Source: Chelativorans alearensis (lineage in GTDB: Bacteria; Pseudomonadota; Alphaproteobacteria; Rhizobiales; Rhizobiaceae). Taken from it: a DNA stretch of 64,000 bases. The notes below the pieces were generated by a model. The model was not told the origin of the DNA. It was given only the letters and a program-made list of their open reading frames with translations, and did not search any database. Of the stretch, positions 1 to 22,974 are shown piece by piece. The DNA is taken from NCBI RefSeq assembly GCF_010993735.1, contig NZ_WQNI01000010.1:1-64000 (forward strand), read 5' to 3'. The first letter of the stretch is position 1. Each line of letters opens with the position of its first letter. The translations under genes and the position numbers were made by a program.

Positions 1-56
1 CGCCATCTCCTGCAACGGCGACGGTGAATCATAAAACCCAATCCGTGTCATCAACG

Positions 57-3000
57 CTACGACTCGGAGTTCAACGGACGTGCTCTAGTCAGGGAAAGCG
101 CACCTCCTTCATAGGCAGCAAGCAGTGCGCGCTTGGCGTATTCCCTGATGACGACATGCGGCAGGTCAGTGGAGAGCGCTGCCTGCATGAGTACGTCTTT
201 CGAACCGGTCAAGAGATGGGCATTTTCTTCGCTCAGTCGATAAGCCGTAAGCGTGAGCCAGAGGCGCGCGCCTAGGTCGTAGAACGGCGATTTCGGATCA
301 CGAAACGCTCGATCGGATGTTCGCCCATACTGAGCGAACAACTCCGTCACCGCGCTCACGTCCTCAAGACGCCCCAGACACCGGGCAGCATGCGCTGTCC
401 GCCATCGCACGCGGGTGTCGATGTCTGAAAAGAAACCGTACAGCAATCGCGACAGGGCTTCCGGTAGCGTAGCTGGAACATCGATCGGGGTCAGCGTGTC
501 GCGGTCTTCCGCTGGCAATCGCGAGACAAGACGATCAAGATACCAGTCGAGGATCTCTCTTGCCTGGACGGCATTGACGGCGTCCACGATGCGAGAGGCT
601 ACGCCGAATAGCGCCGCACTGCCCATCCGCGCTCCGGACTCGGCGATGCCGTCAAGCAGGAGCGCGGTCCTTTGAACCCCGTCCGCTTCCGTTCGTTCCA
701 GCAGCTCATCCAGATTGCTTTGCCGGTAGCGAAGCCAGCGGCTGAATGCGGCCAAATGTGCCGAGATAACCGCGGGAAGCTTCTGCCGACACCAAAGCTG
801 CACCGCAGGCGTACCCTCCCACTCTTTTAGCACGCGAGAAAGTATGAGTGACCAATCCGAGGAATCGGCAATTTCCTCATCGATCGAGGTCAGCGCGTCT
901 AGGAAGGGAACGCGATCACTTGGTGCGCGGAGACTGTTGCTGATGTCGGTGAGAGTAGTCGATGGGTAACGGTACTTTTCGTTCTTTGAGGCCGCTCGAA
1001 CTGCATCTTCGAGTGCCTGCCGCCACGATATTCCATTGGCAGGAGCGAATGGACGGTTCGCCTGTTCGCTAACTTCATCGGTGCCCCGTAAGTGAGGTGT
1101 TCTGTCCTCCATTTTCTCTGATTTGGCTGCTGGTCTAGTCGCATCGAAAGCGACGAGCTGACGTGCTTGCGCGAGCCAGTATCCGGTTCCGGACTCACCC
1201 ACGGCATCGAGCAACACCTTTGCTTGCTCGATACGCACGAGTTGACCATCCGCGAGTAAGGAGGCGCGTGCCAATTCCTCAGCAAGTCTGTTGCCATCGG
1301 CTCGCGACAGGATGCCGTGGGCAGCAACGGCTTTGATAAGCTCGGCGTCTGGACCGTCGACCAGCATGGACAGCGCTGTTGCACGCGTAGGCTCGAGTTG
1401 ACCGAGGGCGAGCATTTCTTGAAGAAGCGGCGGCAAGGTGTTGTATAGTCGGGTCGTTCCGTCATCCATCCACCTCGCAGTGCAGGCAAAAGCGGTGGGA
1501 GCATGAAGCCTAGTGAGTCCGCGCACAACGTCATCCCAACTAAAGCCGTCATACCCATCCAATCGAACCGAGGCAGCAGCCGCGAAGGCGGCAAACTTGC
1601 CCGCAGCATCATCATCACCCTCTGAGCTTGCTGATCTCGCGACTTTGGAAGCACGCGCAACGAACTCTATCTGGTCGATTGCTTCTTCATCGATCTCCTT
1701 TGCGATAGTCACAGCATCACTGAAGAACGCCTCGGCATCGGGTCTGCTAAAGGGAAAGACGAAGCGTGCAAGCGCAACGAGCTCGGCCATTTTTTCGGAG
1801 GCGCGCGCACGCCGCGCCTTGGCATTGTTCCTGGCGATGGCAAGGATCGTCAGCAGGTCAGAATGAAACTCCCGCCGCAACCTGAAACTCGACAACAGGG
1901 TGGTTTCGCGACCGTGATAGGTTCCAAATTCCTTAGTGGCGGCTCGCAATGCCGCTTCACAGAGGGCTGGAACCTGGATGCCTCGCAGAAATAGAAGTTC
2001 CGATATGCTGCGCGCCGCGACCTGACGGAGATAGACAGCCTCGTAGTCTGAATCCAATTCGTACGAGTGCGTCGTGCTCCCGAGCGACGCTAGATCGTCA
2101 GCCAGCAGCGTTCCTGCCACAGCCTTTTGCATCACGTCTAGCCGGCCATGGTACACGCCAAAGAGGACACGCAGCTTGCGATCAGTCCGTTGCTGCTCCT
2201 GGTCCTGTTCATAGGTGTTGGGCTTCTTCGCTCGTTTGCCCTTGGAGGGCTTGGGCACCGACCGCCCCTCCGCGCCTATCCCATGTGCATACTCAAGGAA
2301 AGCATCTGCCGTGGTTGGCTTGCCGTCCAAACTGGCCTGCAGCATCCACAACCTCATAATCGCGTCGACGCGAGAAGCGTCCGATGAGCGCACGGCGATG
2401 ATGTCCTTGGTTAGCACCCGAAGAAGCTTCAGCGCGGTTCGCCGCACAGCGTCCGCTTGTCCACCGACATACAAGATTTCTGTCGCGGCGACGATCAAGC
2501 GGAGCCACTCAGTGGACCAGGAGGACGATGTATAGGAGATGCCCAGTTCGTGTGACGGGATGAACTTCGCACGCAACTTGCCGACGTCGCGCGCAAGTTG
2601 CGCATGATCGATGTCATGACCCGCCAAGGCAAGCTGAACCGTGATCAGCAAACGCCACGGTCCTAGCGGGGATGCTGCTGCGGCGAATTCAAGCAGGGTC
2701 TGGCCGTGACCATCAGCGATGAGACGAGACACAACATCAAGCCCGACACGCAGCCTAACCTCTGGCGGCGTCCAGCGCTGCAAATCGCGTATCGCCGCAT
2801 CGACCCCGGCGATACGGAATACCGCTTCAATTAAGGCCGCTATGTCACGGTCCTCAATTTTCCATTCGACGTGGCGTCCCTGAAATTCTCCATCCTTGCG
2901 CCGCGGGCGCTTGCTGATCCAAGCATCGTACATCCGAAGATAGTGAAGGGTGCCGACGCGATCATCCTTCAAACTGGCGCTCAGCGCGGAGTGGGCTAGA

Positions 3001-5228
3001 ACTGACCCGTGGCTAGGAGCGCGGTCGCGATCAAGGAGCGTTCGCCGTAGCAGTGAAGGGCCGCTAAACTCGACCGAAAGGTCCACTTCCTTGTCGACGA
3101 GATCGTAGAAAGCTCCCTCGTCGTGCTGGGCCTCGGCTCCGATGAGAATGGTTTGTACCGCTTTGACGATGTCGCCAGCTTCTCGGCATGTCGCAAGCGC
3201 AAGGGTCAGACGCCGAATTTGAATCTCGCGTCGTAGCAGTGGATCTCCCACTGCCGCGACAGGTCCATCCACGTCGAGCACCGTGAAGATGTCGGAGATG
3301 CGACTGGCCTTTACAAGAAAGTCGACAACGTACGTGCTGCAATACGGGTCACTGCGATAGTGCGACCAAAAATGTTCGGCGATGCGTGAAACGGTGTCCG
3401 CTTGAGCGGCCTGGCTGCGCTTTGCGATGTGATCTTCAAAGTCTTCATCAGACACTGTCAGTTGGCTACCGCTCAGCCCGATTCCGGGTGCGAGATCGGC
3501 AGCAAAATCTCGGACGAGTTGGTCGTTCGTGCCGCTGACGGCGGCGACGGCCGAAACGGATGCAGGCGTCGGCAAGAATGCTAACGCCGCGGTGAGACGG
3601 TCCAAGTCCGTTTGGCGCCCGAGCTTCTTCAGTGCGAGGGTGAATGATGCATCAATCACGTCTGCCAGCGTCCGGCCGTTCGGAAGCAAGGCCTCAAACA
3701 ATGTATCGAGATTTCCTCCGGACGCCTTCAAGGCGTACGACTGGACACGTGGGTTGCCACCTGTGAGATCGTGGAATGAGGATATGGATGCGTTCGACGC
3801 ATCGGGGAACACGCCGATCAGGTGCTGCCGAGTCTCCGTTTCGGTGAACGGACGGCACAAGACTTCATCCGTTGTCACGGGAAAGCCGAGACCGCTCTTT
3901 CGCGCGGTTCGAGCGGAAACAACGAAGCGGACATTGCTTGGCAGCTTGTTGAGATCGGCGCCAGCAATGTCGTGGATGAACGGACGCTCGACCGGAACAG
4001 CAGATTCAGCGGCAGTTACCGTGTTGTCTGCTGCGTCAACAATGACGAGAAGTATGGCGCCCGGCGATGAAAGTTCGAGCGCCCTACCAGCCATGGTCAT
4101 GCGCTGGAGGAAGGTCTCAATCGTCGTCGGATGGGTGCCACTCCTGGGCAGCAGCAGAGGCAGTTCGGTCGCGACCGCAACATCATTGATGATCTGGAGG
4201 AAGGCGCGCTCGGGGAGATGTCGCTTGTCTTCAGAGTGCATGTAGCTGCCCGCGCCGTAGCAGTCGTAAGTGACCGCAACCGATCCATGGGGCAGTCTCG
4301 ATGCGAGCTGTTGGGTAAGCGTGGTCTTCCCACACCCTCCTTCGCCATGGACGAGAACAGTCCGAACACCAGCCTCGAGCTTTTGCAGAACCTCCCTTGT
4401 GCCGACGCGTTCGATCGTGCTCTTGGGCACTTCGATTGCTGGCGGACAGGGAAATAATCCTTGTCGTCCGCCAAGCCCGAACCATACGAGGAGCTTGCGC
4501 TCGTCGACGAGCTCGCGCAGGCGCTCGGGAAGCATGAGCGTGCGGACCTGAGCTTGCAGGTGCTCGACTTCGCCACGAACATCGTCGCCGAGCAAGGCGA
4601 TGACGTCCTCAGTGACTTTGTCGTCGAGGCCGAATCTTGATAGCGAGCCGCATTCGCCTAGGTCCAGACAATTCAAGAAATCAGCGAACTTGACATTGTC
4701 GAGACCGGTAGCAAGCTGAACTTTGCACCGATCTTCTTCGGGCACCGCAGAAGCACCGCTCCCCGGCAACAATGCAAGAATATCGCTACCTGCGGGCTGA
4801 TTGCTGACGAGCCGGACAACAAGCTGGGCCTCCGGCTTCATACGGCTACGCGCGTGTGCGAAGTCATCGCCCAATCGGCGCAGCACCGAGTTGTTGCCGG
4901 TCGTTCTTGTGCTGGCGCAGAGACGGGCGATGGTCCATGGTGTGGAGGGTGATGATCCCGAGTACTTCAATTGCACGAGCTCGACGCGAGCGGCCTTGTC
5001 GAGGACGCGGTCACCATGCAAGAGGGCGCAATCGACTCCGTCCCACGTTGGCGCGTCGATCGTCGTTTGGGGCTCGGCAAAGGGAATACCTTCGACGGTA
5101 ACCGCCGAGAGCGTGGATCGAGGTTTCAGTAGACCGAGAATCTGCTGTAGCGCCCACAGTTCGTGAAACTGGTCGCCAGCATTTGATCCGCGTGCTCCAC
5201 CGTAATCGGCTGCGTAGTTCGTTGGCAC
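57..5228 (-). CDS. Avs-like STAND NTPase with N-terminal nuclease-like domain
   Basis: A 1723-residue three-part protein. Residues 1-200 resemble the DUF4297/Cap4 restriction-like nuclease fold, with D66 and an E83-x-x-Q86-x-K88 motif as candidate catalytic residues. A STAND-type NTPase follows, with Walker A GEGGCGKT at 295-302, Walker B LLVIVDAAD at 393-401 and a sensor-like FVVSARTAR at 435-443. Residues from about 600 to the end look like long helical repeats with no enzyme motif. This nuclease-NTPase-helical repeat layout is that of Avs antiphage proteins, which sense a viral protein through the C-terminus and then cut DNA. The start is GTG, six bases after GGAG. The layout is seen in the sequence; the antiphage role is inferred. 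It could also belong to another nuclease-NTPase clade. Confidence 0.75.
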   Translation of the reverse strand: MPTNYAADYGGARGSNAGDQFHELWALQQILGLLKPRSTLSAVTVEGIPFAEPQTTIDAPTWDGVDCALLHGDRVLDKAARVELVQLKYSGSSPSTPWTIARLCASTRTTGNNSVLRRLGDDFAHARSRMKPEAQLVVRLVSNQPAGSDILALLPGSGASAVPEEDRCKVQLATGLDNVKFADFLNCLDLGECGSLSRFGLDDKVTEDVIALLGDDVRGEVEHLQAQVRTLMLPERLRELVDERKLLVWFGLGGRQGLFPCPPAIEVPKSTIERVGTREVLQKLEAGVRTVLVHGEGGCGKTTLTQQLASRLPHGSVAVTYDCYGAGSYMHSEDKRHLPERAFLQIINDVAVATELPLLLPRSGTHPTTIETFLQRMTMAGRALELSSPGAILLVIVDAADNTVTAAESAVPVERPFIHDIAGADLNKLPSNVRFVVSARTARKSGLGFPVTTDEVLCRPFTETETRQHLIGVFPDASNASISSFHDLTGGNPRVQSYALKASGGNLDTLFEALLPNGRTLADVIDASFTLALKKLGRQTDLDRLTAALAFLPTPASVSAVAAVSGTNDQLVRDFAADLAPGIGLSGSQLTVSDEDFEDHIAKRSQAAQADTVSRIAEHFWSHYRSDPYCSTYVVDFLVKASRISDIFTVLDVDGPVAAVGDPLLRREIQIRRLTLALATCREAGDIVKAVQTILIGAEAQHDEGAFYDLVDKEVDLSVEFSGPSLLRRTLLDRDRAPSHGSVLAHSALSASLKDDRVGTLHYLRMYDAWISKRPRRKDGEFQGRHVEWKIEDRDIAALIEAVFRIAGVDAAIRDLQRWTPPEVRLRVGLDVVSRLIADGHGQTLLEFAAAASPLGPWRLLITVQLALAGHDIDHAQLARDVGKLRAKFIPSHELGISYTSSSWSTEWLRLIVAATEILYVGGQADAVRRTALKLLRVLTKDIIAVRSSDASRVDAIMRLWMLQASLDGKPTTADAFLEYAHGIGAEGRSVPKPSKGKRAKKPNTYEQDQEQQRTDRKLRVLFGVYHGRLDVMQKAVAGTLLADDLASLGSTTHSYELDSDYEAVYLRQVAARSISELLFLRGIQVPALCEAALRAATKEFGTYHGRETTLLSSFRLRREFHSDLLTILAIARNNAKARRARASEKMAELVALARFVFPFSRPDAEAFFSDAVTIAKEIDEEAIDQIEFVARASKVARSASSEGDDDAAGKFAAFAAAASVRLDGYDGFSWDDVVRGLTRLHAPTAFACTARWMDDGTTRLYNTLPPLLQEMLALGQLEPTRATALSMLVDGPDAELIKAVAAHGILSRADGNRLAEELARASLLADGQLVRIEQAKVLLDAVGESGTGYWLAQARQLVAFDATRPAAKSEKMEDRTPHLRGTDEVSEQANRPFAPANGISWRQALEDAVRAASKNEKYRYPSTTLTDISNSLRAPSDRVPFLDALTSIDEEIADSSDWSLILSRVLKEWEGTPAVQLWCRQKLPAVISAHLAAFSRWLRYRQSNLDELLERTEADGVQRTALLLDGIAESGARMGSAALFGVASRIVDAVNAVQAREILDWYLDRLVSRLPAEDRDTLTPIDVPATLPEALSRLLYGFFSDIDTRVRWRTAHAARCLGRLEDVSAVTELFAQYGRTSDRAFRDPKSPFYDLGARLWLTLTAYRLSEENAHLLTGSKDVLMQAALSTDLPHVVIREYAKRALLAAYEGGALSLTRARPLNSES

Positions 5229-5801
5229 GGTTCACTCCAATGCTCAGACGGAGGCTCGATAGGGAACTCGCGCCGATTCCGAAATCATGCCACAGTCAGT
5301 AAGTATGGCAAACGACCAGAATTTTTATTGGGCTTCAAGGACATCGTCGCCTACCTCCAACCTTGTCGAGAATGCGCTGCATGTCGTCGTTGTTAGACAG
5401 TGTCGTCGCGAAACATGCCTATGCTTGGGGCAAGGACTTGCAGCTGATGCGGCTAGGTAGACAAGCGGCCACCCACGATACTGAATTCCATCTAGCCCCG
5501 GACGTGGCGTTGTGCTTCGGAAGACAACCCCGGCCAGCTTCTAATCTACGATGCCCGCTTCGGGCCACATACAGGACATCGCCGGCTGAACATCAGATGT
5601 CTGCTCTTGTGCTGACCGCACCAAGAGCGGCCAGTCCGTTAGCCGGCCCGATCGCGGCTGTCCGCAACGCGCCTCATTTGGACTAGCGGGCAGCCGGTTA
5701 GCGTTCTAAGAGCGGACCTGGTGCGCGGAGACGTCGGAGGGGTCGGCTACAGGCGGCGATTCGTGTCTAGCAATTCAATTACACGGTTCAGAGGGGCAAC
5801 A
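5229..5801. other. intergenic region, no supported gene
   Basis: About 570 bases between the divergent Avs-like and HEPN genes. Short open frames exist (for example 5363-5686) but lack a recognisable product or a convincing ribosome site. The promoters of both flanking genes must lie here; I cannot place them. Confidence 0.5.
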
Positions 5802-6299
5802 GTGGCTGAGAAATCTGGAATAAGTGGAGCGCTACCCATCGACATGGCGGCGGCGAACAGGCTGCCCGCGCGCGGCGAAGAATTGATGCGCGTGGTAACG
5901 CGGTTCGAGTATGCGCTGAAGGAGATCGGCTATGGGAAGATGGGAGCTGGCGGAGCCGTTGAAGCCAAATGGGACGAGTTCGCGAACAAAGAACTGACGT
6001 CCGATTTCTTGAAACACGTTCGAGAAAATAACATCGCCCCAACCATCCTCAGCAACCCACCCAGCCGGCAGATTCTGAATGGAAGCTCGCTTGACTGGGA
6101 AGCCACCGCACCGCCATCTGATATTCAGTCGCTTATCGGTGCGGTGCGCCGCGTCCGCAACAATCTCGTGCACGGCGGCAAGTCGGGCGACAAAGACTCT
6201 GACCGAAACAACCTCTTGGTTGCTGAGGCCATCGCCGTGTTGATGGAAGCGCTCCGGGCGCACGCCGATCTGCGTTTCATGTTTGAAGGGAAGTGGTAG
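5802..6299 (+). CDS. small HEPN-domain protein
   Basis: A 165-residue, mostly helical protein carrying R119-NNLV-H124, the Rx4H signature of HEPN domains, within RRVRNNLVHGG. In many HEPN proteins this motif forms an RNase site when dimerised; others are only structural. The frame is open further upstream, but GTG at 5802 is preferred because GAGGGG precedes it at good spacing. It lies divergently from the Avs-like gene in a probable defence region and has no MNT nucleotidyltransferase partner next to it. A defence or toxin role is inferred from motif and neighbourhood only. Confidence 0.65.
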   Translation: MAEKSGISGALPIDMAAANRLPARGEELMRVVTRFEYALKEIGYGKMGAGGAVEAKWDEFANKELTSDFLKHVRENNIAPTILSNPPSRQILNGSSLDWEATAPPSDIQSLIGAVRRVRNNLVHGGKSGDKDSDRNNLLVAEAIAVLMEALRAHADLRFMFEGKW

Positions 6300-6816: not shown

Positions 6817-7101
6817 ATGGAACACTCGAAAGACGTCATATCGGTACGGCTATCGAAATCGGATATCGCGATTATTGAAGGCGCCGCCGAAAAATCCGGT
6901 CAGTCGCTTACGGAATTTGTGCGTAGCGCTGTCCTGCGAACCGCTAGCGAAATAGGAGATGGTCGACTGATTGCCATGAGTCCTGAAGGGTTCTCGGATT
7001 TCTGCTCGGCTATATACGCGCCGGGCACACCAATTCCGGAAATGATCGAATTGGCAAACCGGCCTGCGCCGTGGGAATCGGGACACACCGCCGATAAGTG
7101 A
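6817..7101 (+). CDS. DUF1778 (TacA-like) antitoxin, orphan
   Basis: A 94-residue protein with an N-terminal ribbon-helix-helix pattern (VRLSKSDIAIIEGAAEKSGQ, then SLTEFVRSAV) and a C-terminal SPEGFSDFC...PIPEMIELA segment. This matches DUF1778/TacA antitoxins, which repress their own operon and neutralise a GNAT acetyltransferase that modifies aminoacyl-tRNA. The partner normally follows directly, but here the next gene is the oppositely oriented recombinase and no GNAT frame is visible. It is therefore an orphan, or acts as a stand-alone regulator. Confidence 0.7.
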   Translation: MEHSKDVISVRLSKSDIAIIEGAAEKSGQSLTEFVRSAVLRTASEIGDGRLIAMSPEGFSDFCSAIYAPGTPIPEMIELANRPAPWESGHTADK

Positions 7102-7176: not shown

Positions 7177-9543
7177 TTACGCCGCTTCCCAAACCTGGTT
7201 CAAAATCCGAGCGGCGAGAGCTGCCTTGTCCTGCGGCAGGAAACGACCGTAGTGCTGCGCGACCATGTCAGGGGTGTCCTGGATGGCGTAGCTCGCCTGC
7301 TCATAGGAACCGGTCTGTTTGAGGATATGCGTTGCCAGCACGTCGCGGACATTGTGGGGGCCGTGAGGGAGGAGACTGGGAATCGCGCCCCGTTTTGTGT
7401 AGGGGTTGTAGATCCCATATCGTTGGATCGTCAGGCGCCAGGCTTCATAGAACGTGTTTTGGTCATAGGAAGCGTCCCTGCTCGTCGTCTTCACTGTCTT
7501 GACGAAGAACGTGCCTGGATCCTTGGCTCCGCCGAGAAGCACACGCCTGTGCCGGTCGATATAAGCCTCAATGTGATCGTAGAGGCCGCCGAGATCAGGC
7601 AGGATCAGTCGAAACGGCTTGCTCCCGAAATAGGACGAATTGGCGTTCTTGAAGGCCACCGACGGGATCAGCACCTCCCAACCCTTGTCGCGTTCGCTCC
7701 ATCGGATCTCGCCGCGTTTCATGTCGGCGAGTTGGCGCTCGGACCGCGGCAGCCGTCCGCGTTCACAGACCATCAGCTGGCGCAGGTTCTTCTGCCGCAA
7801 TCCAAGGTGCAGCCCGAAGCGCAGCATCAGGAACGATCGGACGGCTTCCGCCGCCGGGCGACGATAGAGCCGCTCGTCCGGCATGAGTCGGAGAATCTCC
7901 TCAGTGATCTTTCGATATTCACCGACCGGGCTTTCGGCCTCCAATACCGGCATGATCGGCTCGAACGGGTCACGATGGACCCGCGCGACGCGCTGGATCT
8001 CCTTCACGCGGGAGGAGGCATGCTTGAAATAAACGTCGCAGGCATCGTCCCAGTCGGCACAGGCGCGGTCGATGTCCGCCTGTGTAACCAGTCCGTCGAT
8101 CGGCCGGAGCCGTGATCCGAGACGAGGGTGCTGTCGTAGCCAGCCCGTTTCCTTCCGGGTGAGGGCAAGCGAAATGCGCAGCATGTCCACTTCCCAGGCC
8201 GTATAGAAGCCGCGCCGCCTCTCGCGCCATTGCACATACCAGTCCCAGATCGAGGGGAAGACGAGCAGGCCGAAGGTCAGGTGCTGCAGCGGCACGCCAT
8301 AGCCGCGGACCGGGCCGCGCGGATGGGCGGCCAATGCCCCGAACATCAGACCGAGATGCTCCACCTTCTGAGACGCCGTCTCCTCGCCCCAGACACCGTT
8401 CCGTTGCAGGCCGAATGCGGTGAGCGTCGCGGTCTTGAAGCGGATGAGTTCGGCCATTTCCATGGCGAGGACAGGCGGAGCGTCGATGACGCCGGATCGC
8501 AGGTCTGGATCGGTGAAGGAAGTGCTGTCTTCGTCCGGCTCGTCGTATCTGTTTCGATGGCTGTCCTGCGCAGCGTCAGATTGACCGTATGTGACCCCTG
8601 GAAAGCGGATTGCGTAGCGCTGCTTCATCGCGGCCGCTTGGAACCGCCTGTAGTCGGTCGAGCCCCTGATAATGACGCGCTGAACCCATGCGAGGATCTC
8701 CTCCTGTTCCTGGCGGGGGCGTGTGTTGAAATCATCGGGCAGATGCCAGGCGAGCCTCCGTCGCTCGGCCGGGGCGATATCGTCGAGGACGTGGCCCGAG
8801 GCTGACCGCGTCTGATGCGGGAGCTTCGCCTTGAAGTATCCCGCCGGGAGGCGATAGCGGCGCTCGATGCGACTGAGAACCTCCATGCTCGCCACGCTGC
8901 GGGGCGCCTTCGATCCTTGCAGCCAGTGGCGGATGGTCGAATGGTCGAGCTTTTCGTCTTCGCGAACGACGGCGCGGTGTAGGTGCCAATAGCTGTCGCC
9001 ATGGCGGCGCATGTGCAGGTCCAGCGCCTCCCGGAGGGTTGGCGGGTCGAGCCACTCCTCAAATAAAGGCTTAGGAAATTCCTCGATGATGCGAGGTTTG
9101 GCGCCGGGCTTCTGCCGTGTCGACGCAGGTCTTGGCTCCGATTGCTCCCTAGGGCCAATTCGCAGGGCAGTGCCCGGCTTTTCTTTAGGCTGCCGCGGAG
9201 GACGGTCGCGTCGCGGACGTGGCTCGGAATCGCGAGCCTTTCGGATCTTGGCCGAAGGGCGATCAGCCGGACTTTGAGTGTTCCGTACAATCGCATCCAG
9301 AGCTGGTTCAATCACCGCCCTCGCGCCCCGAATAGCGTCCCTGTCGAGGCCGCATTGAAGGGCGATTTCGTCCCAATCGTAGCCGCGCACCTTGCGAGGC
9401 GGCATTTGCGACTGGGCGATCAGACCGAGGAGAAATTCTTTGATCCGTGTGCTGTCCCGCGGGGGCAATGCGGGATCGACACGGAGGCGGCAGAAATCGG
9501 AGATCTTGCGGGCAAGCAGTTTGGTATGCGGAAGGTCAGGCAT
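7177..9543 (-). CDS. large tyrosine recombinase/integrase
   Basis: A 788-residue protein. The C-terminal third has tyrosine-recombinase features: an arginine in GLRQKNLRQL, HNVR (H730, R733) and the presumed nucleophile Y765 in AQHYGRF. It therefore probably cuts and rejoins DNA at an attachment site. The N-terminal 450 residues are unusual. They include a basic, proline-rich linker (about 90-160) and a region around 175-290 resembling small DNA-binding folds. Ordinary phage integrases are 350-450 residues. It probably serves one of the islands in this window, and the tRNA-like repeats at 12.6 and 21.5 kb are candidate targets, but the link is inferred. Confidence 0.75.
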   Translation of the reverse strand: MPDLPHTKLLARKISDFCRLRVDPALPPRDSTRIKEFLLGLIAQSQMPPRKVRGYDWDEIALQCGLDRDAIRGARAVIEPALDAIVRNTQSPADRPSAKIRKARDSEPRPRRDRPPRQPKEKPGTALRIGPREQSEPRPASTRQKPGAKPRIIEEFPKPLFEEWLDPPTLREALDLHMRRHGDSYWHLHRAVVREDEKLDHSTIRHWLQGSKAPRSVASMEVLSRIERRYRLPAGYFKAKLPHQTRSASGHVLDDIAPAERRRLAWHLPDDFNTRPRQEQEEILAWVQRVIIRGSTDYRRFQAAAMKQRYAIRFPGVTYGQSDAAQDSHRNRYDEPDEDSTSFTDPDLRSGVIDAPPVLAMEMAELIRFKTATLTAFGLQRNGVWGEETASQKVEHLGLMFGALAAHPRGPVRGYGVPLQHLTFGLLVFPSIWDWYVQWRERRRGFYTAWEVDMLRISLALTRKETGWLRQHPRLGSRLRPIDGLVTQADIDRACADWDDACDVYFKHASSRVKEIQRVARVHRDPFEPIMPVLEAESPVGEYRKITEEILRLMPDERLYRRPAAEAVRSFLMLRFGLHLGLRQKNLRQLMVCERGRLPRSERQLADMKRGEIRWSERDKGWEVLIPSVAFKNANSSYFGSKPFRLILPDLGGLYDHIEAYIDRHRRVLLGGAKDPGTFFVKTVKTTSRDASYDQNTFYEAWRLTIQRYGIYNPYTKRGAIPSLLPHGPHNVRDVLATHILKQTGSYEQASYAIQDTPDMVAQHYGRFLPQDKAALAARILNQVWEAA

Positions 9544-9696
9544 GTGAGTAGGCTATGAAGATTGTCCACGACGTTTGACGAAGGTCGCGGTCCTATCCGA
9601 TTCGTCGCATCGGATGCCTAATCTCCTTGCCAATACGCTGGCACTGCCGATCGGACGGCTTTATGCTTCTGATGGAGCAGGCCGAGAGTGACGAGC

Positions 9697-9759
9697 CTAT
9701 TTAAGCGCGCTTACGTTAGCATCTCCGTTATTTAAGTGTCGATGGGATTGTTTAAATAG
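9697..9759. promoter_or_regulatory. repeated TATTTAAG boxes before the fic gene
   Basis: CTATTTAA (9697-9704), TATTTAAG (9729-9736) and the inverse copy TTTAAATAG (9751-9759) lie in the divergent promoter region, ending 23 bases before the fic start. The outer copies form a dyad. They could be binding sites for the winged helix at the Fic C-terminus or for a shared repressor. The repeats are seen; the function is inferred. Confidence 0.4.
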
Positions 9760-9782
9760 CGCCACGCTGCCAAGATGGCGCT

Positions 9783-10964
9783 ATGACCGATTCCGACGCA
9801 GATCAGCGCCTTGGCCGATATGTCGAAACCCCTGTCGCGGGCGAGATCGTGCGCGCCTTCGTTCCGCCGCCTCTGCCGCCGAAGCCGCAGATCGACGTGC
9901 TGGCTCTTCTGGAACGACTGAGCCTCGCCGAGCGCGCGCTCGGGCGACTGGATGGCATTACCATGCTGCTGCCACGCCAGGAACTCTTCCTCTATATGTA
10001 TGTGCGCAAGGAGGCGGTGCTCTCGTCCCAGATCGAGGGGACGCAATCCACACTGACTGATCTTCTGCGCTTCGAGAACCAGGCCCAGACCGGGGAGCCG
10101 ATCGACGACATCCGCGAAGTGTCGAACTACGTTGATGCGATGATGTACGGGCTGGAACGGCTGGAAGAGCTGCCATTGTCGTTGCGCCTGATCCGCGAGA
10201 TGCATGCTCGGCTGCTGCAAAGCGGACGCGGCGGCACCAAAAGCCCGGGTGACTTCCGCCGTTCGCAGAACTGGATCGGTGGCTCACGTCCCGGCAATGC
10301 GCTCTATGTGCCACCGCCCGTCACCGAACTCGATGCCTGCCTGGATGCTCTGGAGCGTTTCATTCACGAAGACGGATCGCAATTGCCGGCGCTGATCAAG
10401 GCCGGACTGCTGCATGTCCAGTTCGAGACCATCCACCCGTTCCTTGATGGGAACGGCCGTATCGGCCGCCTTCTGGTGACACTGTATCTTTGCGTCAACG
10501 GGGTGCTCCGCAAGCCGCTGCTCTATCTCAGTCTGTTCTTGAAGACGCATCGTGCCGACTACTATCGTCTGCTCCAGGAGGTGCGAGAAAACGGCAATTG
10601 GGAGGCTTGGCTCGACTTCTTCTTGGCGGGTGTAGCCGAAACGGCGAACCAGGCTTTCGAGGCGGCCACCCGGATTGTCGACCTCTTCAAGGAAGATCGC
10701 GAGCGGATCACGAACGAAAGTGACCGTGCAGGCTCGGCACTCCGCATCCACGACCTCTTTCAGCAAAACCCGTTCCTGACCTCCAACCAGCTTGTCCAGC
10801 AGACGGGCTTGTCGGCGCCGACAGTCAATGCGGCCTTGGCCGACCTGGAGAAGATGGGCATTGTTGAAGAGATCACCGGGCGCAAGCGGGGGCGGGTGTT
10901 CAGCTACCGACGCTATCTTGCGATCCTCAGTGAGGGGACCGATCCTTTGCCCGTCGGCAGCTGA
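9783..10964 (+). CDS. Fic-family protein AMP-transferase with C-terminal winged helix
   Basis: A 393-residue Fic protein. The catalytic motif HPFLDGNGRIGR is intact at 218-229 (H218). An N-terminal inhibitory helix motif SSQIEG at 81-86 makes it an auto-inhibited class II Fic enzyme. The family transfers AMP from ATP to hydroxyls on target proteins. The last 80 residues look like a winged helix (FLTSNQLVQQTGLSAPTVNAAL, given here as separate pieces FLTSNQLVQQ and TGLSAPTVNAAL), suggesting DNA binding and autoregulation. It is divergent from the recombinase. Such fic genes are common passengers of mobile islands; the target protein cannot be told. Confidence 0.9.
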   Translation: MTDSDADQRLGRYVETPVAGEIVRAFVPPPLPPKPQIDVLALLERLSLAERALGRLDGITMLLPRQELFLYMYVRKEAVLSSQIEGTQSTLTDLLRFENQAQTGEPIDDIREVSNYVDAMMYGLERLEELPLSLRLIREMHARLLQSGRGGTKSPGDFRRSQNWIGGSRPGNALYVPPPVTELDACLDALERFIHEDGSQLPALIKAGLLHVQFETIHPFLDGNGRIGRLLVTLYLCVNGVLRKPLLYLSLFLKTHRADYYRLLQEVRENGNWEAWLDFFLAGVAETANQAFEAATRIVDLFKEDRERITNESDRAGSALRIHDLFQQNPFLTSNQLVQQTGLSAPTVNAALADLEKMGIVEEITGRKRGRVFSYRRYLAILSEGTDPLPVGS

Positions 10965-11146
10965 AATCCTTCACGAGCCGAGCTCACCTCATAGTCAGCA
11001 ACTGCCGCGCCAGCAAATGAACGACCTTATCGGTCCGATGATGCGGTCCAACTTCAAAATTCCAAGAACGATCAGGTGGTCTCCCTAATGGGCAACCGAA
11101 TCTAGCTTGCATTGTCATCCTGACAATGTCGATCATGCCCGGCATA

Positions 11147-12127
11147 TTAATCTACTCTCTCGACCGTAAAAACAGCGGAGTCAATGCTGATCTCTTCAGA
11201 TACTCCTAACTTTTCCAGTATTATAGGCATGATTTTGTGAATGGCGCGCATACCACACAAAAGTTCGTTCATGTAAATATCTGGGTGTAGACGAACGGAA
11301 TTCCGCCCGAGACTTTCAAGTTCTGCCATGCGCCCTAGATCCTCATGGGGAAAATAAACCAAGTCTAACAGTTCCGCTCGAAGAGGGGCGCCTGCTCGGA
11401 TTGCCTTATGTTTAACAAGGTTTAACCAGCTCCGGTATTCCTTTCGTGTACGATGTCGAAACTCATTAAATTTAGGAGCGAACGCCGGATCTACCTCTAT
11501 CTTGGTCGCAGCGAGATCCATAAGGCATGGCTCAATATTTCCGGCTGGAGAATCGAAAAGATCGAGATCTTCGTCCATAATCAGTTCGTCTACGTAGGCT
11601 GCGTAGAAACCATACACATCGTTGAGGGCATGGTAGATCGCTCTAATGAGCGAAGTGAAAGTATGCTCTTCGAGAGCTTCTATTCTTTTTTCATCATCTT
11701 CATCTTTTTCGAAAAACCGTACATTATAATCAAACTCTAATTCCTTCGGGAAATCTTGAGGAATGGCTACTCCCATCTCCCGAAGGGTATGAAATGTCTG
11801 CCATCCCAGTAGCCCTAAATCGTCATCGGCCAATGGCGCCGTGTCGTAGCCAGTTTCGGCGTTCTCCGAAATTAGCTGAGCCAGAAAATGAAGAAGACTG
11901 TTCCACTTTCTTGCTTTTTCGGTGGATCCGGACCAGAGGACAAATGAGGGATCCAAATCGCCGATCTTAGCCAGCGCGCGCAATCGATCGCTCATATCCA
12001 ATGAGATATGCTCCCCCTTCTTCCATTTGCTGATCTGCGTCGGGGAAACCTTGAGGAGTGCGGCAAGGTCTTTTTGGGAACACGATTGCGCGGCAAGTGC
12101 TAATTGTACCAAGGCGTCACTATCCAT
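11147..12127 (-). CDS. XRE-family transcriptional regulator, AT-rich
   Basis: A 326-residue protein. Residues 5-50 form a Cro/CI-type helix-turn-helix (SQKDLAALLKVSPTQISKWK). The remaining 270 residues are acidic and not recognised. Base composition is clearly more AT-rich than the flanking genes, which points to recent transfer. ATG follows AGGATC by seven bases. A perfect 10-bp inverted repeat lies 44 bases upstream and is the obvious autoregulatory operator. It is isolated, with no evident controlled operon beside it. The C-terminal part could sense a phage or cell signal. Confidence 0.7.
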   Translation of the reverse strand: MDSDALVQLALAAQSCSQKDLAALLKVSPTQISKWKKGEHISLDMSDRLRALAKIGDLDPSFVLWSGSTEKARKWNSLLHFLAQLISENAETGYDTAPLADDDLGLLGWQTFHTLREMGVAIPQDFPKELEFDYNVRFFEKDEDDEKRIEALEEHTFTSLIRAIYHALNDVYGFYAAYVDELIMDEDLDLFDSPAGNIEPCLMDLAATKIEVDPAFAPKFNEFRHRTRKEYRSWLNLVKHKAIRAGAPLRAELLDLVYFPHEDLGRMAELESLGRNSVRLHPDIYMNELLCGMRAIHKIMPIILEKLGVSEEISIDSAVFTVERVD

Positions 12128-12170
12128 GATCTGATCCTATCGCTGCGGAGTTGGATCGAGCTTCTCATGA

Positions 12171-12200
12171 TTTACTAAATTGTCAATTAGATTTAGTAAA
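12171..12200. promoter_or_regulatory. perfect inverted repeat, probable XRE operator
   Basis: TTTACTAAAT (12171-12180) and its exact reverse complement ATTTAGTAAA (12191-12200) are separated by ten bases, so the half-sites are two helical turns apart centre to centre. It lies just upstream of the XRE gene. Binding by that protein is inferred. Confidence 0.65.
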
Positions 12201-12571
12201 TTTCGGAAATTGCTGGGAATAGACGTAGCCCGGTATAAGCCGATAGTTCATTCGTATCCCTCAAGGCGATGGTGTGCCCATTCGGCGCTGCTGGGAACCA
12301 TCGCTAGAGGGCGCGCTACCACAGGCCTCACGTGAGGCGGAGACGCAGCCGCCGGATTTTGATCAGGGCCAGTAGGATGAGGTGATAGGCGCCTGGGCAT
12401 GCCAGCACTATGCTTCCCGGTCCGCTTTTGAGCCTGCTCTAAGCCTTGTGCGTATTCTGGCTATAAAGTTCTACGCGGCAGTACGAAATAGTCCGTTGCG
12501 ACCGTACGTGAGAAGAATTTTCAGTAGAGCATTGGATAGCTGCGATGATCGCAAGTAAAGATGATTGCAGG
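12201..12571. other. intergenic region, no supported gene
   Basis: No gene with a recognisable product or good start is visible. The stretch ends at the left copy of the tRNA-end-like direct repeat and probably contains the right edge of the defence/mobility segment. Confidence 0.4.
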
Positions 12572-12633
12572 CCCCCGCAACCACTTTCGTCATAACTCAA
12601 TAAAATGTGAGATCTAGCAAGCACTTAGGCTGC
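12572..12633 (+). repeat. direct repeat copy A with tRNA 3'-end-like core (candidate att)
   Basis: This 62-base sequence matches 21549-21610 at 56 of 62 positions in the same orientation. It begins with CCCCCGCAACCA, the 3' end of many bacterial initiator tRNA genes including the CCA. The next 12 bases (13-24) are also identical between copies, and the last 11 bases again. The T-arm and the rest of a tRNA are absent. It is best read as an attachment-site remnant marking the left end of the stress cassette. Confidence 0.6.
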
Positions 12634-12925
12634 TAAAGGGCGATCCTCGTTGCCTGACTCTGGTGTCGCCACAGAGAAAAGTTCGCCGGAGGCTGATCGT
12701 GACGCGTTCCATTTGCGCGTTAAAAACGGGTTATTGACCGGGGCAGGACGGCAACGGTGGTCCCTACACAAGCAGGGGATCGCGAAAGATCCTCGTGAGG
12801 TGCCAGCGGTCCCTGAAAGTTATCGACAGCGGACCTTCGCGCATACGTGTACCCGGAATGGAAAGCTGCCGTTGATCTATCAAGAAAGAGCGTCCGAACT
12901 CTTCGAGAGCTAGCTTTACCGACTT
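12634..12925. other. intergenic region, no supported gene
   Basis: An 87-codon frame at 12650-12913 starts well but has no family resemblance and no clear ribosome site, so I do not call it. Nothing else is recognised. Confidence 0.4.
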
Positions 12926-13072
12926 TTAGTTCGAGCCTTCAGCTTCGCTCTGTTCCGTCTGGGCCGGGCGCTCTTTTGCGGCCGCCTTGGCTGCCAGCTT
13001 CTCGGCTTTCTTCGCTGCCTTGATGCGGTCGCGTTCCTTGCGCTCGTGATTATAATTCGGTGCTCGTGCCAT
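12926..13072 (-). CDS. small basic hypothetical protein
   Basis: A 48-residue lysine/alanine-rich protein beginning MARAPNYNHERKERDR, followed by an alanine-lysine helix and an acidic tail. Near-identical small proteins are common in rhizobia and their function is unknown. The ATG at 13072 is chosen because GAGGAAGG lies seven bases upstream; a longer frame to 13165 adds an unlikely cysteine-rich leader. It is transcribed away from groES. Confidence 0.6.
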   Translation of the reverse strand: MARAPNYNHERKERDRIKAAKKAEKLAAKAAAKERPAQTEQSEAEGSN

Positions 13073-13299
13073 GCTGAATCCTTCCTCTGTTCGGGCGATG
13101 AATACGGAGACAAGGCTGGAAATACAATGGCAAGCGAGACAAATCCGATAGCATACTGGTTCCAACCTATGCTCGTGCGGTGAGAGAGATCTCTTCCTTC
13201 ATTGTGAATCGACGCCCGAATTATTGAAATTCTTCTGAGAAATTATCGATCGAGGGCTTGCTGGAACGCTCGGAGTTTTTTCTGCCGAGAAGATTGTTT

Positions 13300-13326
13300 T
13301 TGGCACTCCTGTTATTCGACTGCCAA
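13300..13326 (+). promoter_or_regulatory. CIRCE-like HrcA operator upstream of groES
   Basis: TTGGCACTC, nine bases, then GACTGCCAA. This is the CIRCE arrangement (consensus TTAGCACTC-N9-GAGTGCTAA) with one mismatch between the two arms. HrcA binds CIRCE to repress chaperone operons until heat shock. A TATATA element follows at 13333-13338. The accessory groESL copy is therefore likely under HrcA control. Confidence 0.75.
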
Positions 13327-13380
13327 AGAGTCTATATAAAAGGTGTGGCCCCCTATACCCGGCCGCAGAAAGAACCCTCC

Positions 13381-15379
<1,999 letters not shown>

Positions 15380-15486
15380 GCAGCACGGTATCGGCCGGAA
15401 ATGGCCGGATTGCCATGAACAGCAATATGCACCCGCCCGTTTGGGACAGGTTAATCTACGGACAGAGGGCATGTCAGGTGAGAAAC

Positions 15487-15717
15487 ATGTCAAGCCACCG
15501 CTTCGCCATCGGACAACATGTCCGTATGAGCAACAGGTTCAGTCTTTCACCCGACACGGCCAAAATCTATCACATCACCGCAACCCTGCCGGCGAGGGAC
15601 AATTCGCTTCAATACCGCATCCGCAACGACGACGAGCGTCACGACCGTGTGACGACAGAAGATAGTCTCGAAGAGATAAAAGTACAGCAAGCCTCCGGCG
15701 ACGCTGCACACGACTAG
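15487..15717 (+). CDS. small conserved hypothetical protein
   Basis: A 76-residue protein beginning MSSHRFAIGQHVRMSNRF. A central IYHITATLPARDNSLQYRIR segment reads like a small beta-barrel domain, and the C-terminal tail is acidic. Similar short proteins occur in rhizobia with no known function. The start at 15487 is supported by AGGTGAG just upstream. It lies 107 bases after groEL and 13 bases before the next small gene, so the three may be co-transcribed. Confidence 0.6.
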   Translation: MSSHRFAIGQHVRMSNRFSLSPDTAKIYHITATLPARDNSLQYRIRNDDERHDRVTTEDSLEEIKVQQASGDAAHD

Positions 15718-15730
15718 AAGGAATTTACAC

Positions 15731-15871
15731 ATGGCCAAAGGACAGCAACGCAGCAACCGCGAAGCGAGAAAGCCGAAGAAGGAAAAGGCGGCCGTGAAGG
15801 TGGACACACCTCTTGGCTCTCAGGTCAAGCAGGCGACCAGCAGCGCATTGCGCGGTAAGGCGAAGAAATAA
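15731..15871 (+). CDS. tiny lysine-rich hypothetical protein
   Basis: A 46-residue very basic protein: it starts MAKGQQRSNREARKPKKEK and ends SALRGKAKK. The ATG follows AGAAGGAATTTACAC, giving AAGGA at good spacing. The sequence resembles small basic alphaproteobacterial proteins of unknown role, possibly nucleic-acid or ribosome associated. It continues the groESL-proximal run of small genes. Confidence 0.6.
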   Translation: MAKGQQRSNREARKPKKEKAAVKVDTPLGSQVKQATSSALRGKAKK

Positions 15872-16067
15872 GGCTTACGCTGTGTCCGCCGTGTTCCACC
15901 ACACGCACATGGATGAAGGCCTTCGGGTCGGTGGGTTACGGTGCTAGGCCCCGGTGTGAAGCGCCGGGACGTTACGCTGTGGCGCCATATCCAGCCCGCT
16001 CACAGGGCGTGCCAAGGACCTACGAGCCGTTGACGCCCCACTGCCTACGCGATGGAGATACACAATC

Positions 16068-16322
16068 ATGACGCTCACTTTTCCCAATAGAAGCCGCAGC
16101 TATGACGAAGCCGGGCAGCGCGTTCGCTTCATCGGCCATGATGGAATGTTCGAGGTGCCCTTCTTCGTCGAGACTGATGCGCTCTCCACCGCAGCCGCCG
16201 GCGAGGTGCATTATCTGGCCGCGTTCGATGCAGCGCGCGCCATGATCCACGATGTCGCGCGTGAAATATACGGGAGCGCCCGCAGGACCGTGTATGTGTT
16301 AACGGCAGCGGATTTCCGGTAA
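16068..16322 (+). CDS. DUF1488 family protein
   Basis: An 84-residue protein with the DUF1488 pattern: LTFPNRSRSYDEAG, then VRFIGHDGMFEVPFFVE and a central alanine-rich helix. The function of this family is unknown. GGAG lies upstream of the ATG. It is often found near stress genes in Hyphomicrobiales, which fits this cassette. Confidence 0.75.
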   Translation: MTLTFPNRSRSYDEAGQRVRFIGHDGMFEVPFFVETDALSTAAAGEVHYLAAFDAARAMIHDVAREIYGSARRTVYVLTAADFR

Positions 16323-16366
16323 GCCGGTGGCTCCCAGACCTCCCCGACGAGAACACGAAAGAAGCA

Positions 16367-16657
16367 ATGGATTCTGCCATGACCGTTCGCACCACCGATA
16401 CAGAGGTCACGTTCAGGCAACCGTTCATGTTGAGCGCCTTTGACGCTCGGCAGGCTGCAGGAACCTATCGCCTCGTAATTGAGGAGGAGGAGATCTTGGG
16501 TCTTTCCTTTCTTGCCTACCGGCGCACGGCTACGATGCTGCACACTCCGGCGATTTCCGTCCAAAGCGGCCGACATCAGGTCGTCGAAGTCGACCCGGAG
16601 GAATTGACCGTGGCTCTGGACGCGGATGCACTCACATGCCGATCGCTCAAGGAATAG
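16367..16657 (+). CDS. conserved hypothetical protein
   Basis: A 96-residue protein with a VTFRQPFMLSAFDARQAAGTY opening (first 20 residues of the motif VTFRQPFMLSAFDARQAAGT) and EEEEILGLSFLAYRRTAT in the middle. This reads as a compact beta-rich domain known only as a hypothetical family in rhizobia. The start is ATG 16367 after GAAAGAAG; ATG 16379 is an alternative. It follows DUF1488 by 44 bases and probably shares its transcript. Confidence 0.55.
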   Translation: MDSAMTVRTTDTEVTFRQPFMLSAFDARQAAGTYRLVIEEEEILGLSFLAYRRTATMLHTPAISVQSGRHQVVEVDPEELTVALDADALTCRSLKE

Positions 16658-16736
16658 GCGTTCATGGAGTATCTTAGTGGAATTCACGGAGCCGGCGCCT
16701 TGAAATGCGGGAGCAAAACACTTGCCCGTGCGAACT

Positions 16737-16964
16737 ATGATTTTGACTGTTTCCCGAAGGAGCCGGGGGGAAGTGATCAGCAGCGGCGAAATCTGCATGC
16801 CTCCCGACACGCTGCGGCAGGTATTCGGGCGCGAGGATCTCCATCTCCTGACCGATGACGGGCTCCGCCTTCGCTTCTCGGAAAAGCATCTGCCTGCGGC
16901 CAGTGACGCTGCTCACGCCGATGTCGCAGGCAACCCGCCGCCGCAATCCGAGTGGCGCCATTGA
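16737..16964 (+). CDS. small hypothetical protein
   Basis: A possible 75-residue protein. The middle (MPPDTLRQVFGREDLHLLT, then DGLRLRFSEKHL) looks like genuine protein, and the C-terminal tail is low in features. No good ribosome site is seen, and I do not recognise a family. It lies in the same direction as DUF1488 and its neighbour. Confidence 0.4.
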   Translation: MILTVSRRSRGEVISSGEICMPPDTLRQVFGREDLHLLTDDGLRLRFSEKHLPAASDAAHADVAGNPPPQSEWRH

Positions 16965-17201
16965 CGGTCCGATTTCCGCAGCACGTGATCGTCGATCGAC
17001 CCACGTGAGAGATTCCAATCCCGGCGCCTTGTTTTGAACACTGGCGGTGCCTATCTAGCCAGCATCGATCTTGATTGCCGAACTTTGTTGCGGTGCGGAA
17101 GCCGCGCCGATGGCGATCTTCCTGTCAAAATCGACTCAAATGCACCATCGCGCATTCGGCGTGGCGGGCATTAAACCGAGACCGATTGAAAGGAAATCGT
17201 C

Positions 17202-17411
17202 ATGACCATCGGAACCGTAAAGTTCTTCAATGCCACCAAAGGCTTCGGCTTCATCCAGCCCGATGATGGCGCTTCGGACGTCTTCGTTCATATCTCCGCC
17301 GTCGAGCGCGCCGGCATGCGCACTATCGTGGAAGGCCAGAAGCTGAGCTTCGACGTCGTCAGGGACAACCGCTCGGGCAAGAGCGCCGCGGAAAACCTGC
17401 AGGCTGCATAA
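17202..17411 (+). CDS. CspA-family cold-shock protein
   Basis: A 69-residue cold-shock domain with both RNA-binding motifs visible (KGFGFI and VFVHISAV). These proteins bind single-stranded RNA/DNA and melt structure at low temperature. AAGGA precedes the ATG. The upstream gap of 237 bases allows a long leader typical of csp genes. A strong terminator follows 62 bases after the stop, so it is monocistronic. Confidence 0.95.
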
Positions 17412-17472
17412 GCATTCGTCTTCGAGCCGTGCCCACGGATGTACCTGGCACGGATCGTCGAGACGAGAAGAG

Positions 17473-17498
17473 AGGTCGGGCTTCTGCCCGGCCTTTTT
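17473..17498 (+). terminator. rho-independent terminator after the cold-shock gene
   Basis: AGGTCGGGC, loop TTCT, GCCCGGCCT (one G-T pair) followed by TTTTT. Confidence 0.85.
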
Positions 17499-17606
17499 GC
17501 TTTCAGCCGGAAGGGTTCGCTTCCCGCCGTGCAGCCTGAGCACCGCATACGTTCCTGATTGTTAACACGCGTCCTGCCCGGGCGCATATCTAACCTTGGA
17601 GATCTT

Positions 17607-18635
17607 GTGAAAAGTAAAGTTGCCAATGGCGCCTCCATTGAGCGGAAGGGGCGCTCCTGGACTGCGGTTCTCGCACAGTACAGACAACCGAGCCCGGCCC
17701 GGAGCATGGTCGAAATAGCCGCCACGGCATTCCCTTTTGTCGCCTTATGGGCTTTGGCAGCGGTCGCTGTCGTGCACGGCTACTGGTGGGGCCTCTTGCT
17801 GACGATCCCGGCAGCCGGCTTTCTGGTCCGTCTTTTCATCCTGCAGCACGATTGCGGCCACGGCACCTTATTCGCCCGACGCAGCATCAACGACTGGATC
17901 GGTCGCGTCATCGGCGTTTTTACGCTCACGCCCTACGACTATTGGCGTCGCACTCATGCCGTCCATCATGCAACGGCAGGCAATCTCGACAAGCGGGGGA
18001 TCGGCGATGTCAACACCCTCACGGTCCGGGAATATCGTGCTTTGCTCTGGTGGGGCCGCGCACGCTACCGGCTCTATCGCCATCCCCTGGTGATGTTCGG
18101 TCTCGGCCCCGCCTGGCTGTTCATTTGTCAGTATCGATTGCCTTTCGGCCTCATGCGCGCCGGAGTACAGCCGTGGACGTCGACGATCGCCACCAACCTC
18201 GGTGTCGCTCTCCCGGTCGCGAGCCTGATGTGGCTTGTTGGGGTCGGCCCCTTTCTCCTGGTGCAGGTGCCGATCACGCTGATGGCGGCCACAGCGGGCG
18301 TCTGGCTGTTTTACGTTCAGCATCAGTTCGAGGGAACGCACTGGTCCGAGGGCGACGATTGGAACTTTCAGCACGCAGCGCTGCACGGCAGTTCACACTA
18401 CGATCTTCCGTTCCCGCTGCGCTGGCTCACAGGGAATATAGGCATCCACCATGTGCACCACTTATCGGCCAAGGTACCGTTTTATCGTCTGCCGGAGGTG
18501 CTGCGAGACCATCCCGATCTGCGCGACATGGGCCGCATCACCTTTCTCCAGAGCCTGAGCTGCGTCAAACTGGTGCTGTGGGATGAAAGCACCAAACGCC
18601 TTGTCTCGTTTCGGCAAGCGCGGGCGACAGGCTAG
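17607..18635 (+). CDS. membrane fatty-acid desaturase
   Basis: A 342-residue membrane desaturase with the three histidine boxes that bind the di-iron centre: HDCGH (81-85), HAVHH (117-121) and HHVHH (281-285). Several hydrophobic segments lie between them. The family introduces double bonds into acyl chains and so raises membrane fluidity in the cold; the delta position cannot be told. GTG 17607 is chosen because GGAG lies five bases upstream; an earlier TTG at 17559 is less likely. It fits functionally with the cold-shock gene before it. Confidence 0.88.
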   Translation: MKSKVANGASIERKGRSWTAVLAQYRQPSPARSMVEIAATAFPFVALWALAAVAVVHGYWWGLLLTIPAAGFLVRLFILQHDCGHGTLFARRSINDWIGRVIGVFTLTPYDYWRRTHAVHHATAGNLDKRGIGDVNTLTVREYRALLWWGRARYRLYRHPLVMFGLGPAWLFICQYRLPFGLMRAGVQPWTSTIATNLGVALPVASLMWLVGVGPFLLVQVPITLMAATAGVWLFYVQHQFEGTHWSEGDDWNFQHAALHGSSHYDLPFPLRWLTGNIGIHHVHHLSAKVPFYRLPEVLRDHPDLRDMGRITFLQSLSCVKLVLWDESTKRLVSFRQARATG

Positions 18636-19378: not shown

Positions 19379-19477
19379 TGGAAATGGGGGCGGAGGTAAA
19401 GACAGTTTTCGCGCATGCTGTGCACTGCGGAGGGTTCCATGTATGCTCCTGCAGCACACGAACCCGGGATCGAGTTT

Positions 19478-19882: not shown

Positions 19883-19961
19883 CGAGCCAGAGATAATACC
19901 AGCGCTGCGTAGTCTGAACGCGCTATCCACGGGCGAGGGCGCTTTACCGGTGAAGAGACTC

Positions 19962-21450: not shown

Positions 21451-21548
21451 TCAAACGGTCGCAGGGGCTGTGATGCACGCAGAGTATGATGATGTAGGAG
21501 GGCGCACAAGAAAAGCCGTCAGCGCAAGTGAGCGTATTTGGTTGCGCA

Positions 21549-22894: not shown

Positions 22895-22974
22895 GATTTC
22901 CCTTGTCAGTGGCCTTCTCAAAAATCTGCCGGCCAGAGCTCCACTGAAGGATCATTATTGCAGGAGCGGTGCCG

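Follow-up and report, generated by a model that had tools for sequence, protein, structure and literature searches.

An avs3A gene of Chelativorans alearensis that appears to be split by an IS630-type insertion sequence

Introduction

A 1723-codon open reading frame (ORF) at the edge of a Chelativorans alearensis contig raises the question of whether it encodes a complete antiphage receptor of a new kind. The ORF, which has a GTG start, lies at positions 57-5228 (minus strand) of the window, i.e., the analyzed stretch of 64,000 nucleotides with which contig C2 of a 5.7-Mb genome (36 contigs) begins. The original prediction described an intact gene, located in an accessory region, for an Avs-like STAND NTPase whose sensor part did not clearly resemble any named Avs clade. 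The accessory location is accepted here. The locus is very probably an AVAST type 3 system whose avs3A gene was interrupted at codon 1714 by an IS630-type element, the receptor being recently disabled and SeAvs3-like when intact. The features of the locus are collected in Table 1.

Table 1. Features of the Avs3 locus and its surroundings. Plain coordinates refer to the window; those with the prefixes L019 and L037 refer to loci on contig C34.
Feature	Location	Strand	Basis
IS630-type multicopy insertion sequence, end; source of the final 9 codons and stop of the ORF	1..85	.	repeats compared base by base
TA at IS/gene junction	86..87	.	read from sequence
avs3A homologue, 5' part (native residues 1-1714)	87..5228	-	PADLOC, NF041816, 8DGC, NACHT matches
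avs3A domains (approximate limits): nuclease head, ~1-230; STAND/NACHT NTPase, ~270-620; then repeats			NACHT match and model
Walker A, GEGGCGKT (residues 295-302)	4323..4346	-	translation
192-aa upstream neighbor, RxRNNLVHG motif, HEPN-like in our reading	5721..6299	+	phrog_19013
788-aa probable recombinase, C-terminus tyrosine-recombinase-like in our reading	7177..9543	-	plasmid matches
37-bp exact repeat, possible attachment site of an Avs3 island	12549..12585; second copy L019:3312-3348	.	sequence comparison
avs3A, remaining C-terminal part (~436 codons)	L019:5613-6924	-	search with the Ensifer C-terminus
TA at the other IS/gene junction	L019:6926-6927	.	read from sequence
Avs3B relative, 268-codon ORF following the avs3A C-terminal piece	L019:4931-5737	-	NCBIfam, PADLOC
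PDC-S05 protein (2.2e-29)	L019:187-1068		PADLOC
RecD-like helicase protein, 1290 aa, PDC-S68 (1431 bits)	L037:12036-15908 (C34:226035-229907)	-	PADLOC
ResIII/DEAD helicase near the PDC-S68 protein	L037:15989-18919		
Poly-gamma-glutamate hydrolase-like protein near the PDC-S68 protein	L037:19390-19968		

Assignment to the Avs3 family

The NCBIfam Avs3a profile (NF041816) matched the window ORF with an E-value of 7.8e-167 and a score of 557 bits. Its cut-off of 2800 bits was reached by none of 397 genomes and none of 14 controls, and was also missed by the intact relatives from Ensifer adhaerens ST2 (locus L002, 750 bits) and Rhizobium sp. BT03 (777 bits); since all miss it, the window protein is regarded as a relative within Avs3 and not as an NF041816 equivalog. 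The Avs3a profiles are matched over their whole length by two pieces, one in the window and one on contig C34. Of the 2083 positions of NF041816, the window piece covers 2-1668 and the C34 piece 1678-2081. In the PADLOC Avs3a profile (2090 positions), residues 13-1714 correspond to 8-1675 (E 1e-149) and the C34 piece to 1675-2088 (E 3.5e-58). A phmmer search against PDB retrieved SeAvs3 (8DGC) at E 8.4e-93, the sole other match having an E-value of 0.5.

No other Avs model in PADLOC, the library of which presumably includes Avs1, Avs2, Avs4, and Avs5, matched the window ORF at E up to 1, and an identity as one of these four was rejected on this basis. The profile search suggested with the original prediction thus bore out an Avs-type receptor and identified its clade as Avs3, so that the supposed lack of a named clade gave way to an Avs3 likeness along the whole length (PADLOC, NCBIfam, and 8DGC) accompanied by an Avs3B relative. 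A housekeeping NTPase was likewise rejected, as none of the 60 other genomes searched as relatives yielded a match and the distribution in the order is sparse. In the BT03 relative, the nuclease region gave a weak PADLOC match to LmuA (4.1e-5).

Probable interruption of avs3A by an IS630-type element

Residues 1715-1723 of the ORF and its stop codon lie inside the end of an insertion sequence (IS), an end that also occurs at other places in the genome. The sequence of window bases 1-74 is found unchanged at the end of contig C34, and 74-91 bases starting at the window edge recur at five other genome places, each of which lies no more than 1 base from a contig end (C14, C35, C6, C2, and C34). 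A full copy (C34:241011-242047) contains two overlapping frames for a transposase of the IS630 type (DDE_3, 2.6e-35; HTH_Tnp_IS630, 4.9e-6). Elements of the IS630 family have TA at their junctions as a rule. TA follows all five right ends compared (the window and four others) and precedes the left ends on C34, and both transposase type and junction dinucleotide assign the element to IS630. A search with the full copy found at least five left ends, at least five right ends, the full copy itself, and one 87% internal match; the end counts are lower bounds, 40 of 78 candidates having been scored. We take this element to be the repeat that breaks the assembly. At L019:6925-7097 on C34, an 86-base IS end is followed by one base and then by the full copy; this duplicated end is probably an artefact of assembly joining and possibly a nested insertion.

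The absent part of the protein was found, with the Ensifer C-terminus as query, at C34:239621-240934, where it is 66% identical to the query, contains no stops, and adjoins the opposite end of the same IS630-type element. Hence the C-terminal domain and the N-terminal part are not encoded in one chain in C. alearensis, the IS lying between them, and the gene assumed to be intact has proved to be an IS-truncated ORF. The E. adhaerens frame, by contrast, is uninterrupted (2146 codons), and eight of ten relatives from the genome collection have such a frame of 2124-2160 codons, the two shorter ones (L008, ending at 1801, and L010, ending at 884) being metagenome bins. Departing from the norm of AVAST type 3, avs3A of C. 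alearensis thus appears to be cut in two by a jumping element. We infer that a single IS copy bridges contigs C2 and C34, because the avs3A pieces are colinear with the relatives; the join is absent from the assembly, and the number of left and right IS ends in the genome argues against regarding it as certain.

Domain organization and predicted structures

Pfam NACHT matched residues 289-476 at 28.0 bits (cut-off 26.7, E 2.2e-6). Residues G295, G298, G300, K301, and T302 of the Walker A motif are invariant in all 11 aligned sequences, as is D398, in line with a STAND NTPase carrying Walker motifs. Residues E46, D66, Q86, and K88, also identical in 11 of 11 sequences, are aligned opposite the E, D, and QxK of SeAvs3; in our reading they are probably catalytic, and the N-terminal PD-(D/E)xK motif marks the head as a predicted nuclease. 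A head of this type with conserved E, D, and QxK is shared with Cap4 and DUF4297, from which the protein differs in that the remainder is Avs3. The heads of SeAvs3, Cap4, and DUF4297 are linked in PMC11291478. Pfam DUF4297 itself had no match in the window ORF at E up to 1.

Residues 1-640 were modeled with AlphaFold2 from 11 sequences, with a mean pLDDT of 81.4 and a pTM of 0.73. The best Foldseek match of this model was 8DGC (E 1.2e-34, 633 columns, TMq 0.65), and the rmsd of 12 suggests that the domains of the model are arranged differently. Other STAND proteins (CED-4, Apaf-1, MalT, Avs4, and Avs5) followed at E 1e-9 or weaker. Avs4 (8DGF, 8e-7) and Avs5 (9JAP, 4e-6) share the STAND core and differ by the missing PADLOC match noted above; as they rank below CED-4, Apaf-1, RPP1, and MalT, their likeness is that of STAND proteins in general. 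Both the nuclease-like head and the STAND NTPase with Walker A at residues 295-302 that had been proposed are consequently upheld, the former by the conserved residues and the fold match, the latter by the motif and the above-threshold NACHT match. The long helical C-terminus proposed along with them stands in part: it was modeled in the Ensifer relative alone, and at modest confidence (mean pLDDT 67.4, pTM 0.54, a weak model).

Two chains of 8DGC ranked first among the matches of this C-terminal model (E 4e-26 and 9e-26, TMq 0.41 and 0.46). By arithmetic, the IS cut corresponds to position ~510 of 946, where the repeat helices are almost over, the last long helix spanning 488-503; then come a low-confidence segment (526-556) and a mixed region with strands from 721 to 936. 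A profile of the C-terminal halves of eight relatives found SeAvs3 alone, positions 24-941 corresponding to 1194-2081 (E 3.1e-105). With its two pieces, the locus is colinear with the SeAvs3 system from end to end, and an N-terminal nuclease, a STAND NTPase, repeats, a C-terminal domain, and an overlapping downstream Avs3B are features that the two have in common.

Partner gene

The ORF downstream of the C34 piece matched the Avs3b profiles of NCBIfam (5.9e-28; 98 bits with a cut-off of 200; positions 1-93 of 211) and PADLOC (1.6e-29; positions 3-104 of 238). It is thus a downstream Avs3B whose match is confined to the N-terminal half of the profile and lies under the NCBIfam cut-off. Between this ORF and the end of avs3A there is an overlap of 125 nt. 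An overlapping downstream ORF was found in 11 of 13 loci, including E. adhaerens; the exceptions are L008, in which the downstream ORF looks like an extension of Avs3A, and L010, which lacks such an ORF. The overlaps in this survey are upper values, as the longest frames were used. Annotated overlaps between avs3A and avs3B amount to 41 nt in BT03, 107 nt in Klebsiella variicola (K. variicola), and 35 nt in J. lividum. The Avs3b profile search was run on the C34 and BT03 ORFs, the latter matching at 8.2e-26, whereas in K. variicola and J. lividum avs3b is present by annotation.

Relatives and distribution

The nearest Avs3 relative found was that of E. adhaerens ST2, with 63% identity over residues 6-1714. 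The groEL of the source genome reaches at most 82% identity with Sinorhizobium copies among the plasmid records. In a midpoint-rooted tree of 17 rows, computed from the first 890 residues of each, these two proteins group together (100/100) inside a group of 13 rows (100/100) consisting of the window protein, L002-L011, Rhizobium sp. BT03, and G242. The group stands apart from the Avs3a proteins of K. variicola and J. lividum and from L027 and L028, two partial, long-branched rows; L026 (12 codons read from the start of the match) and the pieces L029-L033 were left off the tree. Given a long-branch warning, the order of the groups is uncertain: the tree shows a separate group, and its sister relation is unproven. 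The window protein is 28% identical to K. variicola Avs3a over residues 13-852 and 22% over 1137-1714, in the sensor, and 26% identical to J. lividum Avs3a over 13-1291. At about 22-28% identity (~25-28% in the longest stretches), the 13-row group is clearly separate from the two named proteins.

According to their labels, the genomes and bins that host the group belong to Alpha- and Betaproteobacteria, Thermodesulfobacteriota, Myxococcota, and Bacteroidota, and at least one member is annotated as a hypothetical protein. Of the 397 genomes sampled from the order, six gave a match to NF041816, including the source genome and G358, the latter only by a short weak stretch. Among 72,556 plasmid records, tblastn matched 18, several of them within the NTPase part only; one place in one record covers 80% of the query.

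Genomic neighborhood

If the contigs are joined as proposed, the Avs3 region is enclosed by the two copies of the 37-bp repeat. Moreover, 462 bp surrounding the start of the 788-aa recombinase gene recur with 91% identity on C34, on the far side of the Avs3 region. These repeats fit a mobile island, and the 37-bp repeat is a possible attachment site. Near-copies of it (97% over 36 and 35 bases) occur in the same-genus genomes G007 and G011. An integration-site search with a 361-base query gave partial matches in 7 of 61 genomes, source included, and groES was found in none of the 11 loci examined. A resolvase-like ORF, in our reading, overlaps a near-copy in a same-genus genome (L042:1426-3036, minus strand). 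No Rfam family matched at the repeat within window positions 9000-24000; the sole two matches in that interval, both under their gathering scores, were the cspA thermoregulator (49 of 78 bits) and the ar35 sRNA (44.8 of 45 bits) at 17020-17502 (plus strand).

The 788-aa recombinase matched no family in PADLOC, Pfam, NCBIfam, or PHROGs at the thresholds used. It has matches in 209 plasmid records, 177 of which are from Rhizobium, Sinorhizobium, or Agrobacterium. The 192-aa neighbor matched phrog_19013, a PHROG with no assigned function (E 1.3e-14); Pfam and NCBIfam yielded no family for it at E up to 1. Also encoded in the window are a TacA-like ribbon-helix-helix protein of antitoxin type (6817-7101, plus strand; PF08681, 4.4e-10) and a SoFic-type Fic-domain protein (9783-10964, plus strand; PADLOC 7.5e-128; NCBIfam 187 bits, cut-off 550). 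On C34, Avs3B is adjoined by a 413-aa protein with no Pfam or PADLOC family (L019:3683-4924, plus strand), and an adjacent second cassette carries PDC-S68 and PDC-S05 proteins, which are candidate defence families of PADLOC.

Age of the break

Relative-rate counts for the window and E. adhaerens proteins, taken with three outgroups, were 92 and 90, 94 and 111, and 89 and 93 for the N-terminal piece, and 19 and 35, 17 and 39, and 22 and 30 for the C-terminal piece, in which the C. alearensis protein has changed less (p 0.04, 0.005, and 0.33). Positions invariant in nine relatives were retained in 234 of 246 cases in the N-terminal piece and in all 52 cases in the C-terminal one. Differences fall mostly on third codon positions (0.65, with 0.19 at second positions, in the N-terminal piece); dS is saturated. 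As neither piece shows an excess of change, the break looks recent, and avs3A would have been constrained until shortly before the insertion or may be constrained still.

Proposed mechanism and alternative explanations

By analogy with SeAvs3, the intact receptor would recognize a phage protein through its sensor and C-terminal domain, the most probable ligand being the large terminase subunit; its STAND NTPase would then allow tetramers to form, which would pair the N-terminal nuclease domains, and the paired nucleases would cut DNA, aborting the infection. Tetramers and nuclease activation are described for SeAvs3 in PMC11291478, and 8DGC bears the title 'Avs3 bound to phage PhiV-1 terminase'. 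Located close to where the helical sensor repeats end and ahead of the C-terminal domain, the IS would leave a 5' piece that retains the nuclease, NTPase, and repeats and has lost the C-terminal domain; such a copy is most likely inactive.

We consider it rather unlikely that the 13-row group recognizes another phage protein than canonical Avs3 does, or another face of the terminase, and that the break was favored by a cost of the receptor, e.g., one imposed by a resident terminase. A different phage protein, which the original prediction had suggested, stays conceivable because the sensor is so dissimilar to that of K. variicola Avs3a. Recognition of terminase and portal by Avs1-4, and their triggering by a third protein, Ksap1, are reported in PMC12931631; as portal and Ksap1 also act as triggers, terminase is not certain for this group. 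Against a different ligand, the C-terminal profile of the relatives matches terminase-bound SeAvs3. Regarding a resident terminase, Terminase_6N (PF03237) had one match in the genome (C36:48607-49227, minus strand, 1.7e-28, in a frame of 464 codons), and the PF04466 and PF05876 terminase profiles had none.

The lack of excess change in two open frames, the C34 one being a 396-codon ORF from an internal ATG, together with a cut close to where the repeat helices run out, would also suit a receptor of two co-acting pieces, the 1714-residue N-terminal one and the C-terminal one, perhaps expressed from IS promoters. A recent insertion accounts for the absence of decay without any function, however, and none of the ten relatives' loci is split at that place, which makes this explanation improbable. 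An assembly artefact, in which an IS copy or contig end was misplaced and the true chromosome, or the majority of cells, carries an unbroken gene, appears even less probable: the break does fall on a repeat that ends contigs, and the full copy on C34 does come after a duplicated 86-base end, but the gene pieces meet opposite IS ends at TA, as at the other ends compared, and a misassembly would need to hit exactly two facing codons of one gene. Finally, a natural short Avs3A of 1723 residues, able to sense phage with no C-terminal domain, for which the single open frame with a stop might speak, is largely refuted, since its last nine codons are IS sequence present elsewhere in the genome, eight of ten relatives are ~430 codons longer (with the two bins ending elsewhere), and the absent part sits in an open frame on C34.

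Discussion

A search of titles and the beginnings of abstracts revealed no description of such an Avs3 group, and an earlier one may exist. With an avs3A interrupted by an IS630-type element as the preferred explanation, the Avs3/Avs3B locus of C. alearensis is probably an ordinary known system that has been disabled in this genome. The analysis adds a divergent group, complete with a partner gene, to AVAST type 3, and it carries the lesson that an ORF truncated by an IS at the edge of a contig can pass for a novel receptor.
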